Shown: positions 1,030 through 8,587 of the stretch, in pieces
Position numbering within the stretch: position 1 is the stretch's first letter
Layout: each line of letters starts with the position of its first letter
IMG/VR virus record: IMGVR_UViG_3300035187_002384
Location: 1-25,694 of that record
DNA from: a virus
DNA: 25,694 bases
Reading direction: 5' to 3' (one strand)
Translations under genes and position numbers: made by a program
The notes under the pieces: model-generated
Told to the model about the DNA's origin: nothing
The model's database searches: none
Seen by the model: the letters and a program-made list of their open reading frames with translations, nothing else

Positions 1030-2237
1030 TGCTGTGCGTGTTTAATTCGTGCCTGTGCTATTGCGACGTACTCGGCCTCGCGTTCAATGCCGATGAAGCT
1101 AAAGCCTTCGAGTGCCGCCGCTTTGCCTGTGCTTCCTGATCCCATAAACGGATCGAGGACGATTCCATCGGGTGGCGTTACGAGCCTGCACAGGTATCGC
1201 ATCAGGTCGGTGGGTTTGACGGTGGGGTGAAAATTGGTTCGCATCGGGTGATTAGTAGGCTTCCCTTCTCTTGTTTCAATTCCCGACATCGCACCCGCCT
1301 TGCGTTGTTCCATCCCCTCGCACCCCTCATCCCTGTCGCGTTTGCTTGCCTTGGCGCAGTAGAAGAACCGCGCGGCGGAGCCTGAATCGCCATAGGTTTC
1401 GGATAGCGGGTGTTCTTCATCAAACTTGCCGTAAATGCCATTTGGAGAGCCGTTTGTTGTTCTGTTATTCCAAGGCCCCATTTTACCACTCTTGGTATCA
1501 GGAAACAACCCCACCACCTCCTCGCTTCCATCGTGGATGAAGTTGGCAGGCCAGCGGCCGAGTGCAGTTGTTGTGCCAATTTTCGGGTCGCTTACTTTAT
1601 AGTTAGCCGTACCGCTCCAATTAGTTGTCCTTTCCTCCGTCCCCACCCTACACCCATCCACGTTAATCGCACCCGTGCCGTGTTGCAGTACGTTCTCCGC
1701 TACCGTGCCAATCAAGGGCTTCCGCGCCACCGTTATCGGCTCAAGTGCGGGTTTTAACGCAGTGCCCCAGCCTTCCCATTGCTTCGCTTCGGGGGTGGCG
1801 GGGTCAGAATATATATATTCGGTTGCAGTTGCCTGCCCATATCGCGCGTTATGTATATTTCCTGCATGGTGTTTTTTTGTCCCCACCACCTTTCGCTCCG
1901 CTCCTGCCGCCTTATCAATCGCCTTGCTCACATCCAGCGACTTCGGAAACCCCGACCCGTACACCCAAGCAATCATATCGCGTATCTCAAACCCAGCGTC
2001 CTCAATCCTTACCGCCATTCGGTGCTGTGTCCTCGTGCCAGCAAAAGCCAGCAGATGCCCGCCAGGCTTCAACACCCGAAGGCACTCCGCCCACACTTCA
2101 ACGCTCGGAACATCGTAGTCCCACTTCTTGCCCATAAACGACAGGCCATACGGCGGATCAGTCACGACAGCATCAACGCTGCAATCAGGCATAGAACGCA
2201 AGACCTCAAGGCAATCGCCGTGTATCAGTTCAGTCAT
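1026..2237 (-). CDS. Site-specific DNA methyltransferase (DPPY, N6-adenine or N4-cytosine)
   Basis: A 403-aa S-adenosylmethionine-dependent DNA methyltransferase of the amino-methylating kind. The catalytic motif IV DPPYGLSFMGKKWD lies near residue 30. The SAM-binding motif I, LDPFMGSGSTGKAA, lies near residue 365, followed by FIGIEREAEYVAIAQARI. The order IV before I indicates the beta class. A typical HPTVKPTDLMRYL helix precedes motif I. The ATG at 2237 is preferred over an in-frame TTG at 2255, because homology begins with the MTELIHGDCL segment. No restriction endonuclease is adjacent, so it is probably an orphan phage enzyme that protects phage DNA from host restriction. Its base composition is GC-richer than the neighbouring primase gene, suggesting separate acquisition. 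Confidence 0.93.
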   Translation of the reverse strand: MTELIHGDCLEVLRSMPDCSVDAVVTDPPYGLSFMGKKWDYDVPSVEVWAECLRVLKPGGHLLAFAGTRTQHRMAVRIEDAGFEIRDMIAWVYGSGFPKSLDVSKAIDKAAGAERKVVGTKKHHAGNIHNARYGQATATEYIYSDPATPEAKQWEGWGTALKPALEPITVARKPLIGTVAENVLQHGTGAINVDGCRVGTEERTTNWSGTANYKVSDPKIGTTTALGRWPANFIHDGSEEVVGLFPDTKSGKMGPWNNRTTNGSPNGIYGKFDEEHPLSETYGDSGSAARFFYCAKASKRDRDEGCEGMEQRKAGAMSGIETREGKPTNHPMRTNFHPTVKPTDLMRYLCRLVTPPDGIVLDPFMGSGSTGKAAALEGFSFIGIEREAEYVAIAQARIKHAQQ

Positions 2238-2252
2238 TGAATTTAATTTGTG

Positions 2253-2260
2253 CAAATCTA
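2253..2260 (-). promoter_or_regulatory. Possible -7 box before the DPPY methyltransferase
   Basis: The minus strand reads TAGATTTG, matching TAnnTTTG, 15 bp upstream of the methyltransferase ATG and just beyond the stop codon of the primase-helicase gene. No TTG is found at the right spacing upstream, so this is a half-match. It would allow the left-most gene group to be transcribed separately from the replication genes. Confidence 0.35.
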
Positions 2261-2265
2261 ATTAA

Positions 2266-4083
2266 TCAAAATGGAGATTCAGCCAGCGTGTTGAATAATT
2301 TACTCCCATCTCTGAAATAAAAGGTGTCTCTATTTAGGTTAGCTTGGAATGTAAGTGGCTCCTCAAAGCCAGTGGGCGCACCGCCAGTTTCCGTCTCCCG
2401 TATCTTACGAATATGCATCTCAACAAGTCTCCTCATAGATGGATCTGGATGCTGAATCCTCCTGTGCAACGTGATGAAATCATCAGCACGGTTGACAAAC
2501 TTAGCGCCACCCTCAGTCTGCTCTGCGAAAGGAGGAACTGGCAAGCCATCCTTCCCCTTAACCCGCTGAGCCTCTGTAACAGCATGTACATTCAGCCAAA
2601 CAGCAATGCTCTTTGAGTTGCTTAACGTCAACAGCTCACTAACAGCCTCGTAGTCATACTCATGAACACCAAGGCTAAACGCCTGCTTCATATCCCTCTT
2701 AAGCCCATTGTAGGGGTCAATAAAGACCCCATCAATGCCATCATTGGCAATCAACTTATGAGTGAATGTAATCAAGTCATAAATGCTATAAGTCTGGGCA
2801 TTGTCAATGATGATGAAGTGCTTCCCAACCCAATCATAAGCCATCTTCATATCCGCAGTCGTCATCTTATCAATAGGCATACCCATAGCAAATGTCATCA
2901 GCCTCATCTTGATAGAGGCAGTCTTATTCTCTGATGAATACACAGCCCACTTCCACCCAAAGTTCATAGCAGCAGCCACTTGTAAGTATAGCGCAAATGT
3001 CGTCTTACCGATATTGCTATGCCCATTTATAATAGTGAAATTCCTCTTATACCTCCAATGGTCATCAATGGAGGGGATGCCAAGTTTAATACCCTGCTTG
3101 ATAACACCACCAGCATACGCTGATATCCACTTAAAGTCCTCATCATTACTGCTGATGAACGACATATCCCCATCCAGGATACGCAACTCTCTACGCATCT
3201 TATCTTTCTCATCATGTATGCTCTTGATAGGCTGTGTCTTGCCCCTCGCAATGCCATCCCTTATAGTGTGCTGCGCCCCTGATATCGAGTCAATATCCCT
3301 CTTGCAAATCTCCCTCGATAAAACCCTGACCACCTCATCCTCCTCCATATTTCCAGAAGCTATATAGCCACCACAAAGTATAGATGCCCTCAACAAGACA
3401 TTGTGCTTATCACCATCAGGGGCTTTCCTAATCATCTTGCAGGCTATGTTCAGCGTCTCATAATCTGTGTTTATGTTAGGCTGACTCACAAGAGCATCCT
3501 CCTTAGGCCTTTCGCTTATCAAGCCCCCATACACAGCAGACTCCTCATTGAGGATTATCTCAGGGTCGTAGCTTATAAAGCAAGCCCTGCTCACGTTGAT
3601 GCTCGTGGGGTCTGCATCAATATTGTGAGCATCCTTGTAATACTTGCAGATAGCCTTATAATGCTCCCTATGTCTTTCCGGGTTGCTTATCTTCATCAAC
3701 ACCTTCAAGCCTGTGCCGGTGGGACTGACAAAGCAGGCTAATGTATATGGGTCGAAAGAAAGCTTGTTCTTGTATTCTACAACAGATACATTATCCAAGT
3801 CTATGCAGATAATGCCTGAGTGCTGAGTTAAAGCGGAGTCTTCACGCTTAGAGAATATCCCAGAGAACAATATGACTGGGAGCTTCCTCTTAATTGCATT
3901 CTTCTTATCCTTGTCTTTTTCATTCCTTAGGGATTCAATAATCGGTAAAGAACTTTTGTGGCCATCCATTATCAGCGTTACCGCTTGAGAAAGACTTATA
4001 GTATGTGGTTGTTCTGTTGACGAAAGTGTCTGGAAAATAGTTATTCGTCTCTGTAATATTGGGGTTTGGTTTGTCGTGGTCAT
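2266..4083 (-). CDS. Primase-helicase (BT4734/VirE-N primase domain fused to DnaB-like RecA domain)
   Basis: A 605-aa replication protein. Residues about 12-190 match the BT4734-like/VirE N-terminal primase domain (RITIFQTLSS, LPVILFSGIFSKRED, HSGIICIDLDNV, CFVSPTGTGLKVLMKI). A helical linker around residues 230-275 resembles primase C-terminal domains. Residues about 310-600 form a RecA/DnaB-type ATPase with Walker A GHSNIGKTT (about residue 350) and Walker B GVFIDPYNGL. It probably primes and unwinds phage DNA. The start at 4083 is kept because the RITIF segment at residue 13 already belongs to the domain; this makes its 5' end overlap the DUF1599 gene by 149 nt in another frame. It is the last gene of the replication block. 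Confidence 0.88.
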   Translation of the reverse strand: MTTTNQTPILQRRITIFQTLSSTEQPHTISLSQAVTLIMDGHKSSLPIIESLRNEKDKDKKNAIKRKLPVILFSGIFSKREDSALTQHSGIICIDLDNVSVVEYKNKLSFDPYTLACFVSPTGTGLKVLMKISNPERHREHYKAICKYYKDAHNIDADPTSINVSRACFISYDPEIILNEESAVYGGLISERPKEDALVSQPNINTDYETLNIACKMIRKAPDGDKHNVLLRASILCGGYIASGNMEEDEVVRVLSREICKRDIDSISGAQHTIRDGIARGKTQPIKSIHDEKDKMRRELRILDGDMSFISSNDEDFKWISAYAGGVIKQGIKLGIPSIDDHWRYKRNFTIINGHSNIGKTTFALYLQVAAAMNFGWKWAVYSSENKTASIKMRLMTFAMGMPIDKMTTADMKMAYDWVGKHFIIIDNAQTYSIYDLITFTHKLIANDGIDGVFIDPYNGLKRDMKQAFSLGVHEYDYEAVSELLTLSNSKSIAVWLNVHAVTEAQRVKGKDGLPVPPFAEQTEGGAKFVNRADDFITLHRRIQHPDPSMRRLVEMHIRKIRETETGGAPTGFEEPLTFQANLNRDTFYFRDGSKLFNTLAESPF

Positions 4084-4983: not shown

Positions 4984-5379
4984 TTAAATTGTTTTATTTT
5001 CGGGTTGCAAGATAGCAAGTAAATCATCATCAGTCATTCTCTTTATTTTATTGATGAACCTCCAATTTGGCAGGTATGGGTCAACAGCTTGTACTGAATG
5101 AATGACTGATGTGTGGTGCCTACCGAGGAGGTTGGCAATTGATTGCAGTGTCACTATGTTGCCGTGGTATGTTCTAAGCACATAGCAAAGAGCGTGCCTC
5201 CCCGTTGCGATATGAAGCATCCTCGATCCAGACATCATCTCTTTCTTTGTAGTACCTACAAGTCTACATATCTGATCTGAATAAAAGTCAGCAATTTTAT
5301 TTATGAAGTAGTTGAACTGCAACTCTTCATCTATCGGCTTTGCTGTCATCCTTTTCTTGTATATTTTTCTTTGTGTCAT
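4984..5379 (-). CDS. DnaA domain IV-like DNA-binding protein
   Basis: A 131-aa protein whose C-terminal half matches the DNA-binding domain IV of DnaA. The helix around VTLQSIANLLGRHHTSVIHS is the signature helix-turn-helix (GRDHTTVxHA in DnaA), preceded by a basic, Arg-rich segment. There is no AAA+ ATPase domain, so it cannot be a full initiator; it could bind DnaA boxes at a phage origin or compete with host DnaA. The ATG at 5379 overlaps the stop of the cytosine methyltransferase (ATGA), which makes this start more likely than the ATG at 5484. It stands at the head of the replication block. Confidence 0.85.
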   Translation of the reverse strand: MTQRKIYKKRMTAKPIDEELQFNYFINKIADFYSDQICRLVGTTKKEMMSGSRMLHIATGRHALCYVLRTYHGNIVTLQSIANLLGRHHTSVIHSVQAVDPYLPNWRFINKIKRMTDDDLLAILQPENKTI

Positions 5380-7841
5380 CCGTTTAAAATTGTGTCTATT
5401 AGTTGAATCCTTTGCCCTATCCAGCGCATCACCGGAACAGCCATTGAGTTGCCACAAGCCTTGTACCTCGGCCCATCTGGGCATTGGTCAGCAGGTTTGT
5501 TGCGGTATGGTATTTTTGTCCACCCCCTCGGAAATCCTTGTAAAATTTCCGTTTCAAACGGAGTCAATCTTCGGATAGCACAGCTTCTTTGTGTTGGTTG
5601 ACCTTTATTAGCATTGGATTGCCATACTTCTTGAACCTTTGATAATGCTTCTCGCAATAACCAAGGCCTTTCATCGGATTCCCACAAATCTTGCAAGAGC
5701 CTTTTTGACGATGACTTTTCATATGGCAACTGCGACAAATACGTTCTAAGTTCTGCAATGAGTTGTTTAGGTAATTCCCATCCTTGTGATGCACATCCTT
5801 CGCATCCTGCTTCCCGCAACGATTGCAACAACCACTCGGAATAATCTTCCTTGCGTGATAATGGGCTGTAGATGAACCTACTATCGGAGAATGACGCTGG
5901 TCGTATGCCAAGCCCATACAAATCCGATTGCAGTATTTGCGTTGATTGAAGTGAATTAAATACTCCAAATCCCCATTGGGCAAACGCTTTCTCTCCAATT
6001 TTTTCTCGCAATAGTGACAATGCTTTAATGGTGTTTCTTTCTTGTGCGCCGGCATAATTTAAACCTTTATTCACAAAGGTATGACTAAAAGCGTTACCCT
6101 CCAACACCGCTCCATAATGGTTTACATCAGAAGCCGAAGAACCAATGGTCTGCGATGTATTCTCGTTGACAGTTTGGTTGTAGGTGTCCACGGCAATCGG
6201 TTGGGCAATCTGCTGATCTTGCGCTGCGCTAATCGTAAAGGCTTGCTCTTCTTGACCAAGGTAGCCTTTGCCTCCACCTTCGCATCCACCACGAACTTTG
6301 AATGCTATCGGTTGGGCAATTGCGTGTGGGCCTTTTGCCACAAGCGATGACATTGTTTCTCCTGATTCAATTCTTGGCTCGTATTGTGCATTCTCGCCTT
6401 GATTGAAGGCAGCACGGTCTATGATGGTTGGAGCATAAACCATATTTCCTGTTTCGTTTGAACCGCTTGGGCCTCCATATCCTGTTTTCCATTTGCTTGT
6501 AACGGTCGGGCTTAAATTTCCTCCTGCACAACTGATTTCGCTTGCCTTTCCAACGCCTCCTTCAGCATCGGTGGTAACTTCTTCCCTCTTTTTTCTGCTC
6601 GGTTTAATATCCCTTTGCAGGCTTTCGGACTCAAATAATACCGCTGCGGCAGGTCGCCAGTCTCCAAGGTATCCGATAACAGCGTTTCTATGTTGGGCTT
6701 GTTTAAGGAAATCACCGACCTCGTAAATCCCTGCCATTTCGCTAAAAATGTCGCTATTTGTTTGTCTCGCATAATTTGTAAGTTCTTGTAATAGGGTCAA
6801 AGAAGATAATGTTGCGCTTAACGAGTTCGGGGACGAGTCGCTCAAACGAGCAATGAGCCGACTTATGCTCTCCCCTGCTTGAAAAAAGATAGAGATTTTG
6901 GATTGAATTGTTTCCCTTGTCAAAGTCAATGTGGTGTACAATTTCATCACTTCGTAGAGGTCTTCCAATGCTTTCCTCAACGACTCTTCGGTGAGTGTAG
7001 ATTGGCCTTCCTGATTCAAACCCATCAATAGGTCTTCCAGAGTGAGTTCCTTTTGACTTTTTTCTCCAAGAGGCAAATCCCAATTTTTTTGCACGGGATG
7101 ATGTTTCAGGAATACCTCTACCAAGAGTTCTTGCCAATTCTTGTAGTTGCAGTTTTCCGTAAGAATTCCGAATAACTTCATCCTCCTCATCACTCCATCT
7201 CTTGAGAGGCTTGCTTGATCCGATTTTATTGGCTCTCGCTCGTACAGACTCAACACCTCTATTAAGATGCCGTGCAATATCTCGGTGAGACATTGTGCTA
7301 TAGTTAGAGCGGATGTAATCGTCCTCTCTTTCAGTATAGAATCTACGCTTTGTCCACATACAAAAACTCTTCTTCTTCTTTGTGCTACTCCGAAATATTG
7401 TGCATCAAGGATTTCAACATCACAAATATAGCCAATTTCTTCAAGACCGTCTAAAAATGATTGAAAATCTTTGCCTTGATTGCTACTTATGATGCCTGGT
7501 ACATTCTCCCAAACAATCCATTTTGGCTTTTTTATGTCAATCAAAGACAAAAATGTTAAAGTCAAATTCCCCCTTGGGTCTTCCATCCCCTTCCTAAGAC
7601 CAGCTACGGAAAAAGACTGACAAGGAGTCCCACCAACCAAAAGGTCTATGTGAGAATCCAAAAAGGTTTTGTTTGAAAAAAGTTTAGTCATATCCCCCAA
7701 ATTTGGTACAGTGGGGTATCTGTACTTCAGAACTTCTGAAGGGAAGTGTTCTATTTCGCTGAACCACTGCGCCTCAAATCCGAGGGATTCCCAAGCCACC
7801 GAAGCTGCTTCGATGCCTGAACAAACGCTACCGAACTTCAT
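5376..7841 (-). CDS. dcm: DNA (cytosine-5) methyltransferase with two long inserts
   Basis: An 821-aa cytosine-5 methyltransferase. The SAM motif FGSVCSGIEAAS is at residues 3-14, catalytic PCQS at 73-76, ENVPG at 112-116 and QRRRR at 154-158. The C-terminal RRLTPFETEILQGF is near 763, with KACGNSMAVPVMRWIG near the end. M.HhaI-like enzymes are near 330 aa, so about 450 residues are extra. Residues about 164-389 split VFV(C)G from GYLGDWRPAAAVLF and coincide with an HNH ORF in another frame; residues about 596-760 coincide with a second one. The frame nevertheless stays open throughout. The start lies in a TGATG overlap with the upstream gene. It is probably an orphan anti-restriction enzyme; whether the inserts are tolerated or removed is unknown. 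Confidence 0.88.
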   Translation of the reverse strand: MKFGSVCSGIEAASVAWESLGFEAQWFSEIEHFPSEVLKYRYPTVPNLGDMTKLFSNKTFLDSHIDLLVGGTPCQSFSVAGLRKGMEDPRGNLTLTFLSLIDIKKPKWIVWENVPGIISSNQGKDFQSFLDGLEEIGYICDVEILDAQYFGVAQRRRRVFVCGQSVDSILKERTITSALTIAQCLTEILHGILIEVLSLYEREPIKSDQASLSRDGVMRRMKLFGILTENCNYKNWQELLVEVFLKHHPVQKNWDLPLGEKSQKELTLEDLLMGLNQEGQSTLTEESLRKALEDLYEVMKLYTTLTLTRETIQSKISIFFQAGESISRLIARLSDSSPNSLSATLSSLTLLQELTNYARQTNSDIFSEMAGIYEVGDFLKQAQHRNAVIGYLGDWRPAAAVLFESESLQRDIKPSRKKREEVTTDAEGGVGKASEISCAGGNLSPTVTSKWKTGYGGPSGSNETGNMVYAPTIIDRAAFNQGENAQYEPRIESGETMSSLVAKGPHAIAQPIAFKVRGGCEGGGKGYLGQEEQAFTISAAQDQQIAQPIAVDTYNQTVNENTSQTIGSSASDVNHYGAVLEGNAFSHTFVNKGLNYAGAQERNTIKALSLLREKIGEKAFAQWGFGVFNSLQSTQILQSDLYGLGIRPASFSDSRFIYSPLSRKEDYSEWLLQSLREAGCEGCASQGWELPKQLIAELRTYLSQLPYEKSSSKRLLQDLWESDERPWLLREALSKVQEVWQSNANKGQPTQRSCAIRRLTPFETEILQGFPRGWTKIPYRNKPADQCPDGPRYKACGNSMAVPVMRWIGQRIQLIDTILNG
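5564..6055 (-). CDS. HNH endonuclease nested in dcm (zinc-finger type)
   Basis: A 163-aa ORF in a different frame of the same strand, wholly inside the cytosine methyltransferase gene. It has Cys pairs HCHYC and CNRIC in the first third. CCNRCGKQDAKDVHHKDGN, NNSLQNLERICRSCH follow near residues 75-110 (HNH metal site with flanking zinc-binding Cys), then CKICG and a GLGYCEKHYQRFKKYG tail typical of phage HNH proteins. The quality of the motif rules out a chance shadow. It has its own promoter-like TTG-N20-TACCTTTG 19 bp upstream of the ATG. Probable role: homing endonuclease or free-standing nicking enzyme. The same DNA is read as a recurring segment of the phage methyltransferase in the other frame. 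Confidence 0.8.
   Translation of the reverse strand: MPAHKKETPLKHCHYCEKKLERKRLPNGDLEYLIHFNQRKYCNRICMGLAYDQRHSPIVGSSTAHYHARKIIPSGCCNRCGKQDAKDVHHKDGNYLNNSLQNLERICRSCHMKSHRQKGSCKICGNPMKGLGYCEKHYQRFKKYGNPMLIKVNQHKEAVLSED
6074..6104 (-). promoter_or_regulatory. Promoter for the nested HNH gene
   Basis: The minus strand has TTG (6102-6104), a 20-nt spacer, and TACCTTTG (6074-6081), matching the Bacteroidota -33/-7 arrangement. The -7 box ends 18 bp before the ATG of the zinc-finger HNH gene. It lies within the methyltransferase coding frame. The spacing is identical to the promoter at 20205-20235. Confidence 0.5.
6512..6772 (-). CDS. Small phage protein nested in dcm in a third frame
   Basis: An 86-aa ORF in another frame inside the methyltransferase gene. 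Residues about 38-75 hold TGDLPQRYYLSPKACKGILNRAEKRGKKLPPMLKEAL. I recognise this as a widespread small phage protein family of unknown function, with the recurring core YFLSPKACxGILRRAxKRGKxLP. The same bases in the methyltransferase frame give GYLGDWRPAAAVLFE, which I also remember from phage methyltransferases, so both readings may be conserved. It starts 19 nt before the end of the first HNH ORF. Whether it is translated cannot be told from sequence alone. Confidence 0.5.
   Translation of the reverse strand: MRDKQIATFLAKWQGFTRSVISLNKPNIETLLSDTLETGDLPQRYYLSPKACKGILNRAEKRGKKLPPMLKEALERQAKSVVQEEI
6754..7359 (-). CDS. HNH endonuclease nested in dcm (Myb/SANT-like DNA binding)
   Basis: A 201-aa ORF in another frame inside the methyltransferase gene. 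Two helix-turn-helix repeats are visible: EREDDYIRSNYSTMSHRDIA...ARANKIG (residues 9-46) and WSDEEDEVIRNSYGKL...SRAKKLGF (54-95). A C-terminal HNH site follows, with EIVHHIDFDKGNNSIQNLYLF and HKSAHCSFE (about 138-170). This layout is known from phage homing-type HNH enzymes. Its ATG falls in the codons for VCG of the methyltransferase, exactly at the insertion point. A TATATTTG box at 7423-7430 lies 63 bp upstream but lacks a -33 match. Likely a mobile endonuclease that entered the methyltransferase gene. Confidence 0.8.
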   Translation of the reverse strand: MWTKRRFYTEREDDYIRSNYSTMSHRDIARHLNRGVESVRARANKIGSSKPLKRWSDEEDEVIRNSYGKLQLQELARTLGRGIPETSSRAKKLGFASWRKKSKGTHSGRPIDGFESGRPIYTHRRVVEESIGRPLRSDEIVHHIDFDKGNNSIQNLYLFSSRGEHKSAHCSFERLVPELVKRNIIFFDPITRTYKLCETNK

Positions 7842-8044
7842 CAGCTTACATTTGAATATCCGTTTCTTTTTTGAATCTCTTGTAGCACAACCTGAACCTT
7901 TTCTTTAATAGAATTGACAAGCTCACTATCATCAGAGTTTCGTTCAATAGCCCCTTCTAAATTGGCTAACTCCTGGTCTAATGATATAAGACTAATCCCA
8001 GATAGCCATTTCTTGTATGCGGATTTGCTTGAATTAGTCATCAT
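7841..8044 (-). CDS. Hypothetical small helical protein
   Basis: A 67-aa protein of unknown function that looks all-helical with a heptad-like pattern (SLDQELANLEGAIE...ELVNSIKEKVQVVLQEIQKR), so a short coiled coil is likely. Two adjacent ATGs (8044 and 8041) could start it; an upstream ATG at 8059 would deepen the overlap with the previous gene and is less likely. It ends in a TGATG overlap with the cytosine methyltransferase start, so the two are probably translationally coupled. Confidence 0.6.
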   Translation of the reverse strand: MMTNSSKSAYKKWLSGISLISLDQELANLEGAIERNSDDSELVNSIKEKVQVVLQEIQKRNGYSNVS

Positions 8045-8255
8045 CACCCACCTCCTCATCGTTTTTGCTGAAGATGCTAGATATAACCTCTTGATCGTAT
8101 CCCGATGACATCAACAGCATTTCAAGTAGTGCCTGAATATCTCTGATGTTTAAATCCCAGGCATCTCGCGTGATACTGGATTTACTTAGCCCCATATGAG
8201 GCATATTGACTTCAATAGTCAACTTAGTGTAGTATTTTGATTTCTTTTCTGACAT
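8034..8255 (-). CDS. Hypothetical acidic protein
   Basis: A 73-aa protein that I do not recognise. The first 25 residues form a likely beta strand pair (KYYTKLTIEVNMP), followed by helices (IRDIQALLEMLLMSSGYDQEVISSIF) and a strongly acidic tail (DEEVGDDD). It follows the SSB-like gene by 53 bp and overlaps the next gene by about 8-11 nt. The upstream leader contains two TTTAAAC copies directly before CCAATG. Confidence 0.6.
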   Translation of the reverse strand: MSEKKSKYYTKLTIEVNMPHMGLSKSSITRDAWDLNIRDIQALLEMLLMSSGYDQEVISSIFSKNDEEVGDDD

Positions 8256-8308
8256 TGGTTTAAAGTTTAAATGATATATGAGAAACTTCGTGGAAGGGAA
8301 AGCTTTAT

Positions 8309-8587
8309 TTAGAAGGGGAGGTCATCTGACCCAACAGATGCTTTCGCAGGTGTTGATGCAGGTTTAGACGTTACATTATCCCTCGGCTCAAGTAGTGTGG
8401 CATATGGTTTCCCTGATGCCTTACCGGTGCGGATGCGGATGCGAACCTTTGCGTTCTTATCTGCTTTTTGCATTGCACGATGCATCTCTTCAACAGATAG
8501 TGCTATCGTGTAGCCAACGTGCTGATTGTTGAATTCATCACTGAATACGCTTCCAATGAATTCCAATTGATTTTGATTTGTTTCCAT
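8309..8587 (-). CDS. Candidate phage single-stranded DNA-binding protein
   Basis: A 92-aa protein ending in SDDLPF, which matches the conserved acidic tip of bacterial SSB (DDDIPF), the docking site for partner repair and replication proteins. It is preceded by a Ser/Thr/Pro-rich linker (NVTSKPASTPAKASVG), as in SSB. The body has alternating strands (KVRIRIRTGKASGKPYATLLEP) compatible with a small OB fold, but is shorter than a standard ~110-aa OB domain, and I see no clear family match. Its position 12 bp downstream of the RecB-type exonuclease supports a recombination or replication role. Confidence 0.6.
   Translation of the reverse strand: METNQNQLEFIGSVFSDEFNNQHVGYTIALSVEEMHRAMQKADKNAKVRIRIRTGKASGKPYATLLEPRDNVTSKPASTPAKASVGSDDLPF

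Follow-up and report, generated by a model that had tools for sequence, protein, structure and literature searches.

A methyltransferase gene and the HNH genes inside it

The stretch of viral DNA analysed here (the window; 25,694 nucleotides, positions 1 to 25,694 of IMG/VR record IMGVR_UViG_3300035187_002384) carries a gene for a C5 cytosine DNA methyltransferase (MTase), in which two open reading frames (ORFs) for HNH endonucleases, here called HNH-A and HNH-B, are lodged (Table 1). An earlier note, made from the sequence alone, had proposed that the MTase frame stays free of stops across its whole length and that both HNH ORFs lie wholly inside it in other frames, and both points are confirmed. 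The MTase ORF reads from its ATG to its stop codon over 821 aa with zero internal stops; the two HNH ORFs are on the same strand and in two different other frames, the MTase frame being the +1 frame of HNH-A and the +2 frame of HNH-B.

Table 1. Features of the methyltransferase locus, in window positions.
Feature	Positions	Strand	Evidence and remarks
C5 cytosine DNA MTase ORF	5376..7841	-	821 codons, stop-free through both inserts; Pfam PF00145 6e-56; PHROG 116 (phrog_116) 1.3e-77
MTase N-terminal part, residues 1-161, motifs I to VIII (SVCSGIEA, GGTPCQSF, ENVPG, QRRRRVFV)	7359..7841	-	aligned to insert-free relatives; invariant columns
Putative Shine-Dalgarno sequence, purine-rich motif VIII codons, 7 bases 5' of HNH-A start	7367..7381	-	weak in the window, dG -2.4
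HNH-A endonuclease ORF, 201 aa, HNH_3 in C-terminal half	6754..7359	-	HNH_3 3e-8; HNH pattern in 13/13 nested family members
Insert A, MTase residues about 162-389	6675..7358	-	missing in 25/34 informative relatives
MTase variable (target recognition) region between the inserts, ends approximate	6075..6674	-	alignment with insert-free relatives
AAAGG, Shine-Dalgarno-like, 8 bases 5' of HNH-B start	6064..6068	-	weak, dG -3.4
HNH-B endonuclease ORF, 163 aa, zinc ribbon-like + HNH + zinc ribbon-like	5564..6055	-	PHROG 1271 1.9e-10; family alignment; junction
Insert B, directly 5' of motif IX; approximate, 5' end in variable sequence	5580..6074	-	insert-free relatives read MAIRRLTP there
MTase C-terminal part, motifs IX and X (RRLTPFETEILQGFP, GNSMAVP)	5376..5579	-	alignment with insert-free relatives; junction reads; conserved columns

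The C5 MTase motifs I, IV (PCQ), VI (ENV), VIII, IX and X, by the numbering that we assume for this enzyme, are all present in the window MTase, which retains the motif residues that are invariant in a 25-row alignment. HNH-A is inserted directly after motif VIII and HNH-B directly before motif IX, so that the two sites flank the variable region, which we take to serve in target recognition as in other C5 MTases. The sharing of bases extends to conserved MTase sequence at both sites: the ATG of HNH-A overlaps the MTase codons GTA TGT, and the final codons and stop of HNH-B fall in the bases of motif IX.

The full HNH signatures attributed to both ORFs are borne out by matches to Pfam and PHROG families and by the catalytic residue pattern, which is kept in 13/13 HNH-A and 49/52 HNH-B sequences. 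HNH-A matches Pfam PF13392 (HNH_3) above the curated cut-off. The Pfam matches of HNH-B itself are below the cut-off (HNH_3 4.6e-4, HNH 0.002), its best assignment being to the PHROG HNH family; when 28 members of its family are scanned at E up to 0.01, HNH is found in 25 and HNH_3 in 24. In the alignment of this family, a core of the form CxxC...HH...N...NL...CxxCH is flanked by two zinc-ribbon-like parts, and the sequence that HNH-A and HNH-B have in common is limited to the HNH core.

Empty sites, movement and distribution of the two families

A scan of virus contigs for the MTase gives 37 loci, one of which (L001) is identical to the window in the MTase gene. Site A is informative in 34 of them: nine (L001-L009) have the insert, and in the 25 empty ones the alignment joins query residues 1-163 directly to those from 379 onward. 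The insert-free alleles align across the site, and the positions of the HNH genes do coincide with the extra residues of the MTase, as had been supposed. At the codon level, four empty alleles read QRRRRVFV-V-GYLGDW, while the window has a stretch running from CGQSV to NAVI between QRRRRVFV and GYLGDW; the insertion point placed by the earlier note after VFVCG is correct to within one codon. HNH-B is found in two of the 37 loci (L001 and L010), and insert B ends directly 5' of motif IX. Relatives of the window MTase lacking one or both inserts exist, and the homologue search that had been suggested as a check, once run, found MTases with and without inserts. The tail of insert A past the HNH-A stop (window 6675-6753, minus strand) reads AQHRNAVI ahead of GYLGD in the MTase frame, which resembles a degraded second motif VIII.

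Some of the inserts appear to have moved recently. Over MTase bases 150-1200, with insert A at about 484-1167, the identity of L002, L003 and L005 to the window reaches 94-100%, against 66-86% outside. In L010, identity to the window is 98-100% through HNH-B and 36-80% in the first 150 bases of an ungapped comparison. Among nine HNH-B pairs that were profiled, the insert is clearly above its flanks in two (L072-L074 and L072-L077), L072 and L074 being 93-100% identical in HNH-B with flanks mostly at 65-90%, and the excess is partial in four others (L072-L075, L077-L079, L105-L108 and L100-L101). Co-conversion of the insert together with its flanks is expected of homing endonucleases, and the insert-rich identity can be read as this signature of homing, in which the HNH proteins would act by cutting DNA.

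Both families were sampled through family alignments, scans of virus contigs and genome contigs, and phage records; with matches shorter than 90 aa left out, this yields 20 HNH-A-like and 58 HNH-B sequences, all of them distinct. Of the former, the 13 closer ones (at least 47% identity, reaching down to 47-49% and including those of cluster J mycobacteriophages) all lie in an open MTase frame, in the same relative frame. The seven distant HNH-A-like genes (about 42% identity or less) do not, as their host-equivalent frame holds 5-19 stops, and six of the seven are without an MTase match in the locus. The host frame of HNH-B is open in 53 of the 58 distinct sequences, always in the other relative frame than that of HNH-A. 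In each of the 66 open-host sequences the remaining, third frame is interrupted by one or more stops (12-25 for HNH-A, 1-17 for HNH-B).

Every open host frame contains at least one of three C5 MTase motifs searched as loose patterns, and at least two are found in 13/13 host frames of HNH-A and 37/53 of HNH-B, many of these loci ending at contig edges. Among ten ambiguous host frames of HNH-B, five have a Pfam DNA_methylase match and five have none; four of the latter (L100, L101, L102 and L104) show motif IX just downstream, the fifth being L114. The carriers of HNH-B include Staphylococcus phage CUB-EPI_14 as well as genome contigs labelled Pseudomonadota, Bacillota, Spirochaetota, Verrucomicrobiota and Melainabacteria, and a scan of plasmids gave one weak match, to another MTase. 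HNH-A and HNH-B occur together in the window, in L151 and in L083, which is on the same contig as L152. In the cluster J mycobacteriophages, the C-terminal part of the MTase is annotated as a separate gene (L038 2923-3273, L039 3011-3358, L040 2822-3172), and the MTase may be split there.

Selection on the two frames and probable translation of both products

When the codons of the window HNH-A are shuffled synonymously, the MTase frame acquires a mean of 4.0 stops and remains without any at P 0.002; for the window HNH-B the mean is 11.2 stops, and 0 of 1000 shuffles are stop-free. Family-wide, the mean number of host-frame stops after shuffling is 3-6 for HNH-A and 2-13 for HNH-B, and the probability of a stop-free host frame is at most 0.01 in 13/13 HNH-A and at most 0.025 in 50 of the 52 HNH-B sequences tested. 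The nested class, on which the shuffle, selection and Shine-Dalgarno (SD) tests were run, is defined by zero host-frame stops, and its openness is in itself no result; what counts as a result is how large a share of all distinct sequences belongs to this class, together with the shuffle probabilities. One HNH-B copy, L085, was dropped from the three tests for a stop in its HNH frame.

For the selection test, changes were classed as synonymous (S) or not (N) in each frame by the logic of overlapping genes, changes to stops being left out of the NN/NS ratio. Since no gene is under equal constraint at codon positions 1 and 2, an empirical null was used, namely 55 MTase N-termini taken from these loci and read in the corresponding false frames. 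A second version of the test used representatives at least 10% apart and leave-one-taxon-out ranges. For HNH-A, the host-frame NN/NS is 0.54 (0.47-0.64; leave-one-out 0.50-0.58) against a null of 0.99 (0.82-1.19) at divergence 0.15-0.30, and 0.67 (0.57-0.78) against 0.96 (0.83-1.10) at divergence 0.30-0.42, these values resting on 9 representatives, 7 of which enter tested pairs. The ratio in the false frame is 1.38, with a null of 1.37. Divergence at codon positions 1, 2 and 3 is 0.31/0.19/0.28, against 0.17/0.13/0.43 in the null (0.15-0.30), the third position not being the fastest. The identity to the window is higher in the host frame than in the third frame in 10 of 12 HNH-A comparisons, with a tie for L003 and the reverse for L154 (29 vs 30). 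With the host-frame NN/NS below its null and third positions not the fastest, amino acids are conserved in either reading of HNH-A, and these substitution patterns indicate purifying selection in both frames.

The host-frame NN/NS of HNH-B is 0.76 (0.65-0.90) against a null of 1.37 (1.09-1.76) at divergence 0.15-0.30, and 0.99 (0.85-1.11) against 1.42 at divergence 0.30-0.42. Its codon-position rates are nearly those of a single-coding gene (0.18/0.18/0.40), and its distance from the MTase null may in part be due to the HNH protein, as the five HNH-B sequences that are not read through in that frame give 0.99 and 1.02 (see below). The host frame of HNH-B is held mainly to stop avoidance. The dual-frame purifying selection that the earlier note had proposed to look for is thus strong in both frames for HNH-A; for HNH-B, its signal in the MTase frame is weak and mostly that of stop avoidance.

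The HNH genes bear signs of being translated from their own starts. The pairing of the bases upstream of the HNH start with the anti-SD sequence has a mean free energy (dG) of -6.17 in each family, against -2.76 (HNH-A) and -2.79 (HNH-B) for control ATGs of the same loci (p 3e-4 and 2e-11, respectively), and the start is ATG in 13/13 HNH-A and 51/52 HNH-B sequences, as picked by a rule that favours ATG. In some carriers of HNH-A, the Arg codons of motif VIII read AGAAGAAGGAGG or AGGAGG (L009 and L038; also L004), and the SD is strong in L004, L009 and L038; the catalytic motif VIII of the host may in some HNH-A carriers double as a ribosome binding site. AGR codons make up 29/36 of the motif VIII Arg codons in 10 carrier alleles and 73/121 in 34 others (p 0.03), a difference which is suggestive only.

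In the MTase frame, the insert peptides have no Pfam match of their own, and the whole frame, searched against Pfam at E up to 1, gives DNA_methylase only, without an intein splicing (Hint) domain. The AlphaFold model of the whole MTase predicts the host-frame peptide of insert A as helical, in ten-residue blocks mostly at pLDDT 62-89, the values falling to 35-40 near residues 251-280; insert B scores 27-57, and the greater part of the variable region stays below 35. The predicted helices fit the selection result for insert A, which rests on few carriers.

The nested genes as probable homing elements, alternatives and known systems

All these results make it highly probable that homing-type HNH genes are nested in the C5 MTase with both frames kept readable. 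That a mobile HNH gene entered the MTase in this way, as the earlier note had it, is supported by the empty alleles, by the recent movement of some copies, by the open frames and by the selection on two frames, weakly so for HNH-B. Each insert would be a homing-type endonuclease gene targeted to a highly conserved stretch of the MTase, motif VIII for HNH-A and motif IX for HNH-B, and would be copied, after cutting of the DNA, into empty alleles along with flanking sequence. The HNH protein would arise by internal initiation in its own frame, aided by the SD-like sequence upstream, which for HNH-A would lie inside the motif VIII Arg codons. The MTase would be translated straight through, gaining a peptide of about 165-228 residues at the edge of its variable region, where extra length would be tolerated, and selection would keep the MTase frame of each insert clear of stops and, in insert A, would conserve the peptide as well. 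The MTase probably remains active, to judge from its intact motifs and from this selection. The presence of relatives of both HNH genes in many phage MTases suggests a widespread route into a host gene without breaking it.

Several observations weigh against this explanation. Homologues in which the MTase frame is broken by stops at the HNH position, which the earlier note had set against its reading, do occur as a minority (L110, L116, L117 and L192). Counting L122 as well, five of the 58 HNH-B sequences carry 11-23 stops where the host frame is usually open. HNH-B has pieces of the MTase on either side in L110 and L117, with the frame broken, and the MTase of L116 is degenerate around HNH-B. 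In L192, on a contig of a Clostridium genome bin, HNH-B is in the MTase frame itself, as one fusion ORF of 488 codons (2053-3519), and in L122 it adjoins the end of the MTase, outside the gene. In L005, HNH-A is nested in an MTase whose frame shifts further downstream. As to mobility, L004 and L006-L009 do not show the contrast in identity between insert and flanks when compared with the window, nor is there an insert excess in the HNH-B pairs L072-L079, L092-L094 and L070-L072. The amino-acid constraint on the host frame of HNH-B is weak: the five sequences that are not read through give ratios of 0.99 (0.62-1.53) and 1.02 (0.74-1.40), on 3 and 6 pairs, from which the nested HNH-B hardly differ. 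The window's own SD signals are weak at both starts (Table 1), and the model of the whole MTase is of low confidence (mean 52.3). Finally, the structure model of HNH-B is confident (mean pLDDT 89.0), and a Foldseek search with it gives no match that reaches E 0.001; PacI, a restriction enzyme of the HNH type, comes up only at E 0.63.

The five HNH-B loci with host-frame stops had been considered as free-standing controls, a use that was rejected as only L122 stands beside an MTase; they are controls for absence of read-through in that frame only. In the HNH-B tree, from which four open sequences with short matches were left out, the open and the five non-open sequences do not form one clade each; three changes are seen, and the five group with seven open ones.

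The broken or degenerate MTases of L110, L116 and L117, the shifted one of L005 and the possibly split ones of the cluster J phages are what could be expected if the MTase were inactivated and persisted as a mere carrier for homing elements. We hold this to be unlikely, as the window MTase retains its invariant motif residues and the constraint on the MTase frame persists inside insert A. It is still less probable that the inserts are unrecognised self-splicing introns with HNH genes, the open MTase frame being incidental. HNH genes are indeed common in phage introns, and the annotators of Mycobacterium phage Schatzie wrote at its HNH-A homologue that they were 'unable to determine intron boundaries'. 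However, the catalytic RNA core of a Group I or Group II intron finds no Rfam match in window 5000-8400 at E<=1, nor at the gathering score in 7 carrier loci, and an intron has no reason to keep a frame stop-free in 66 distinct sequences or to conserve insert A in the MTase frame.

That the HNH ORFs are dead relics or overprinted by-products, the MTase with its extra peptides alone being real, is very improbable. L085, with its HNH-B frame interrupted and its MTase frame open, would be such a case, and the constraint on the HNH frame of HNH-A (NN/SN 0.52) is weaker than in single-coding genes (0.25); it is nevertheless clearly below 1, and that of HNH-B (0.23) is as strong as in single-coding genes. 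The kept HNH patterns, the SD enrichment, the recent movement of some copies and the lack of a Pfam match for the MTase-frame peptides also speak against relics. Chance or HNH codon usage as the source of the open MTase frame is rejected by the synonymous shuffles and by the counts, hardly any room being left to it by two GC-rich copies whose shuffle probability is not small (L185 0.058 and L119 0.072), when the relatives that are not read through hold 11-23 stops.

The principle of a hidden out-of-frame HNH gene has already been published. Such a gene lies in the methylase of phage ShiLan (the 'ShiLan domain'), with no intron or intein found and with homing proposed (Arsenault et al. 2025, PMC11855218). 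The same authors describe a second hidden HNH-like ORF, in the helicase-methylase Pacc40 gp60, whose HNH identity they call less certain. Mobility of the ShiLan domain has been described (PMC9957025), one more carrier has been reported (PMC12613952), and the introns and free-standing HNH genes of cluster J phages have been treated (PMC3706429). In the text of PMC11855218, the words 'selection' and 'cytosine' do not occur, and a literature search, most subscription papers being outside it, found no paper on C5 MTases with such inserts and no two-frame selection test of such elements. The present case is set apart by the class of MTase, the HNH families, the hosts and the presence of two elements in two frames of one gene, and it adds evidence on selection.

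The likeness to ShiLan is close in several respects. In both cases an HNH gene is hidden in another frame of a phage methylase, on the same strand, the host frame is stop-free and no intron or intein is found. The disjunct distribution suggests homing in both; here there are empty alleles, and the inserts of some carriers are more alike than the host gene. The class of methylase is different, ShiLan gp65 having TDPPYG, which we take to be a motif of amino-MTases, while the window enzyme is of the C5 class. HNH-A resembles the ShiLan HNH protein in the HNH core only (40% over 52 aa), a kinship beyond this core not being apparent, and HNH-B has no significant match to it. None of the 16 phage records that match the ShiLan HNH at 1e-30 is among those matching HNH-A or HNH-B. 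For ShiLan, a GTG start was proposed in PMC11855218 and no ribosome binding site was found, whereas HNH-A and HNH-B have ATG starts and SD enrichment, weak in the window. Their carriers are mostly environmental phages and some bacterial genome bins, and in the window two elements occupy two frames of one gene. Fifteen of the 16 ShiLan-matching records are mycobacteriophages; in the remaining one, Cyanobacterial phage Cr-LKS3 (OM373202.1 39568-40038), an annotated DNA methylase covers a 49% relative of the ShiLan HNH.

Other known systems share some of these features. Pacc40 gp60 likewise has an out-of-frame HNH-like ORF, in a different host gene. HNH genes encoded in Group I introns (I-HmuI type) are also at conserved sites of phage genes, with homing as the presumed route of HNH-A and HNH-B too; unlike them, our elements have no intron family match and leave the host frame open. 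Inteins are translated with the host protein at conserved motifs, as the inserts would be, but the MTase frame has no intein domain match and the nuclease is in another frame. The free-standing HNH homing endonucleases of phages are of the same enzyme class, and L122, beside its MTase gene, is a member of the HNH-B family; the nested genes differ from them in lying inside a coding sequence and having bases in common with it.

The usual view is that homing genes, if they are to spare their host gene, must sit in an intron, in an intein or between genes, and the two families suggest that sharing bases can serve instead. With 66 distinct sequences, two more families of HNH genes, two sites of insertion and carriers in genome bins of several bacterial phyla, they widen the basis of the ShiLan observation, and they supply sequence evidence for the use of both readings. 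Being compact elements in phage genes that lend themselves to expression in laboratory strains, they make the birth and retention of a gene inside a gene directly testable. They are also a warning for annotation, as long phage MTase ORFs may hide a second gene. One bolder possibility, which we put forward tentatively and regard as rather less probable than its negation, is that phage MTases are the centre of a general strategy of dual-frame homing, one that has evolved repeatedly. HNH families sharing at most the HNH core (HNH-A, HNH-B and ShiLan) would each have evolved their usual relative frame, their own gene doubling as a stop-free and sometimes functional host peptide; in HNH-A, the peptide of the second reading would by now be folded into helices within the MTase and be under selection, making the loss of either reading costly and locking the element in without splicing.

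Some further observations concern motif IX and the surroundings of the locus. In four contigs (L100/L196, L102/L195, L193 and L194), motif IX reads RRLTP-L-stop-L-ECERLQG in one frame (CTY TRA CTT), and in L101 and L104 the frame shifts by +1 at this very point. This conserved interruption is not tied to the insert, because L193 is without an HNH-B match; a prfB-like frameshift, considered for some HNH-B carriers, is wrong for most carriers. L195 has a second HNH-B-like stretch (41%) at 6315-6731, upstream of the first copy. In the window, an ORF resembling the C-terminal domain of DnaA (4984-5484, minus strand) overlaps the 3' end of the MTase in its longest form, a later start being possible.

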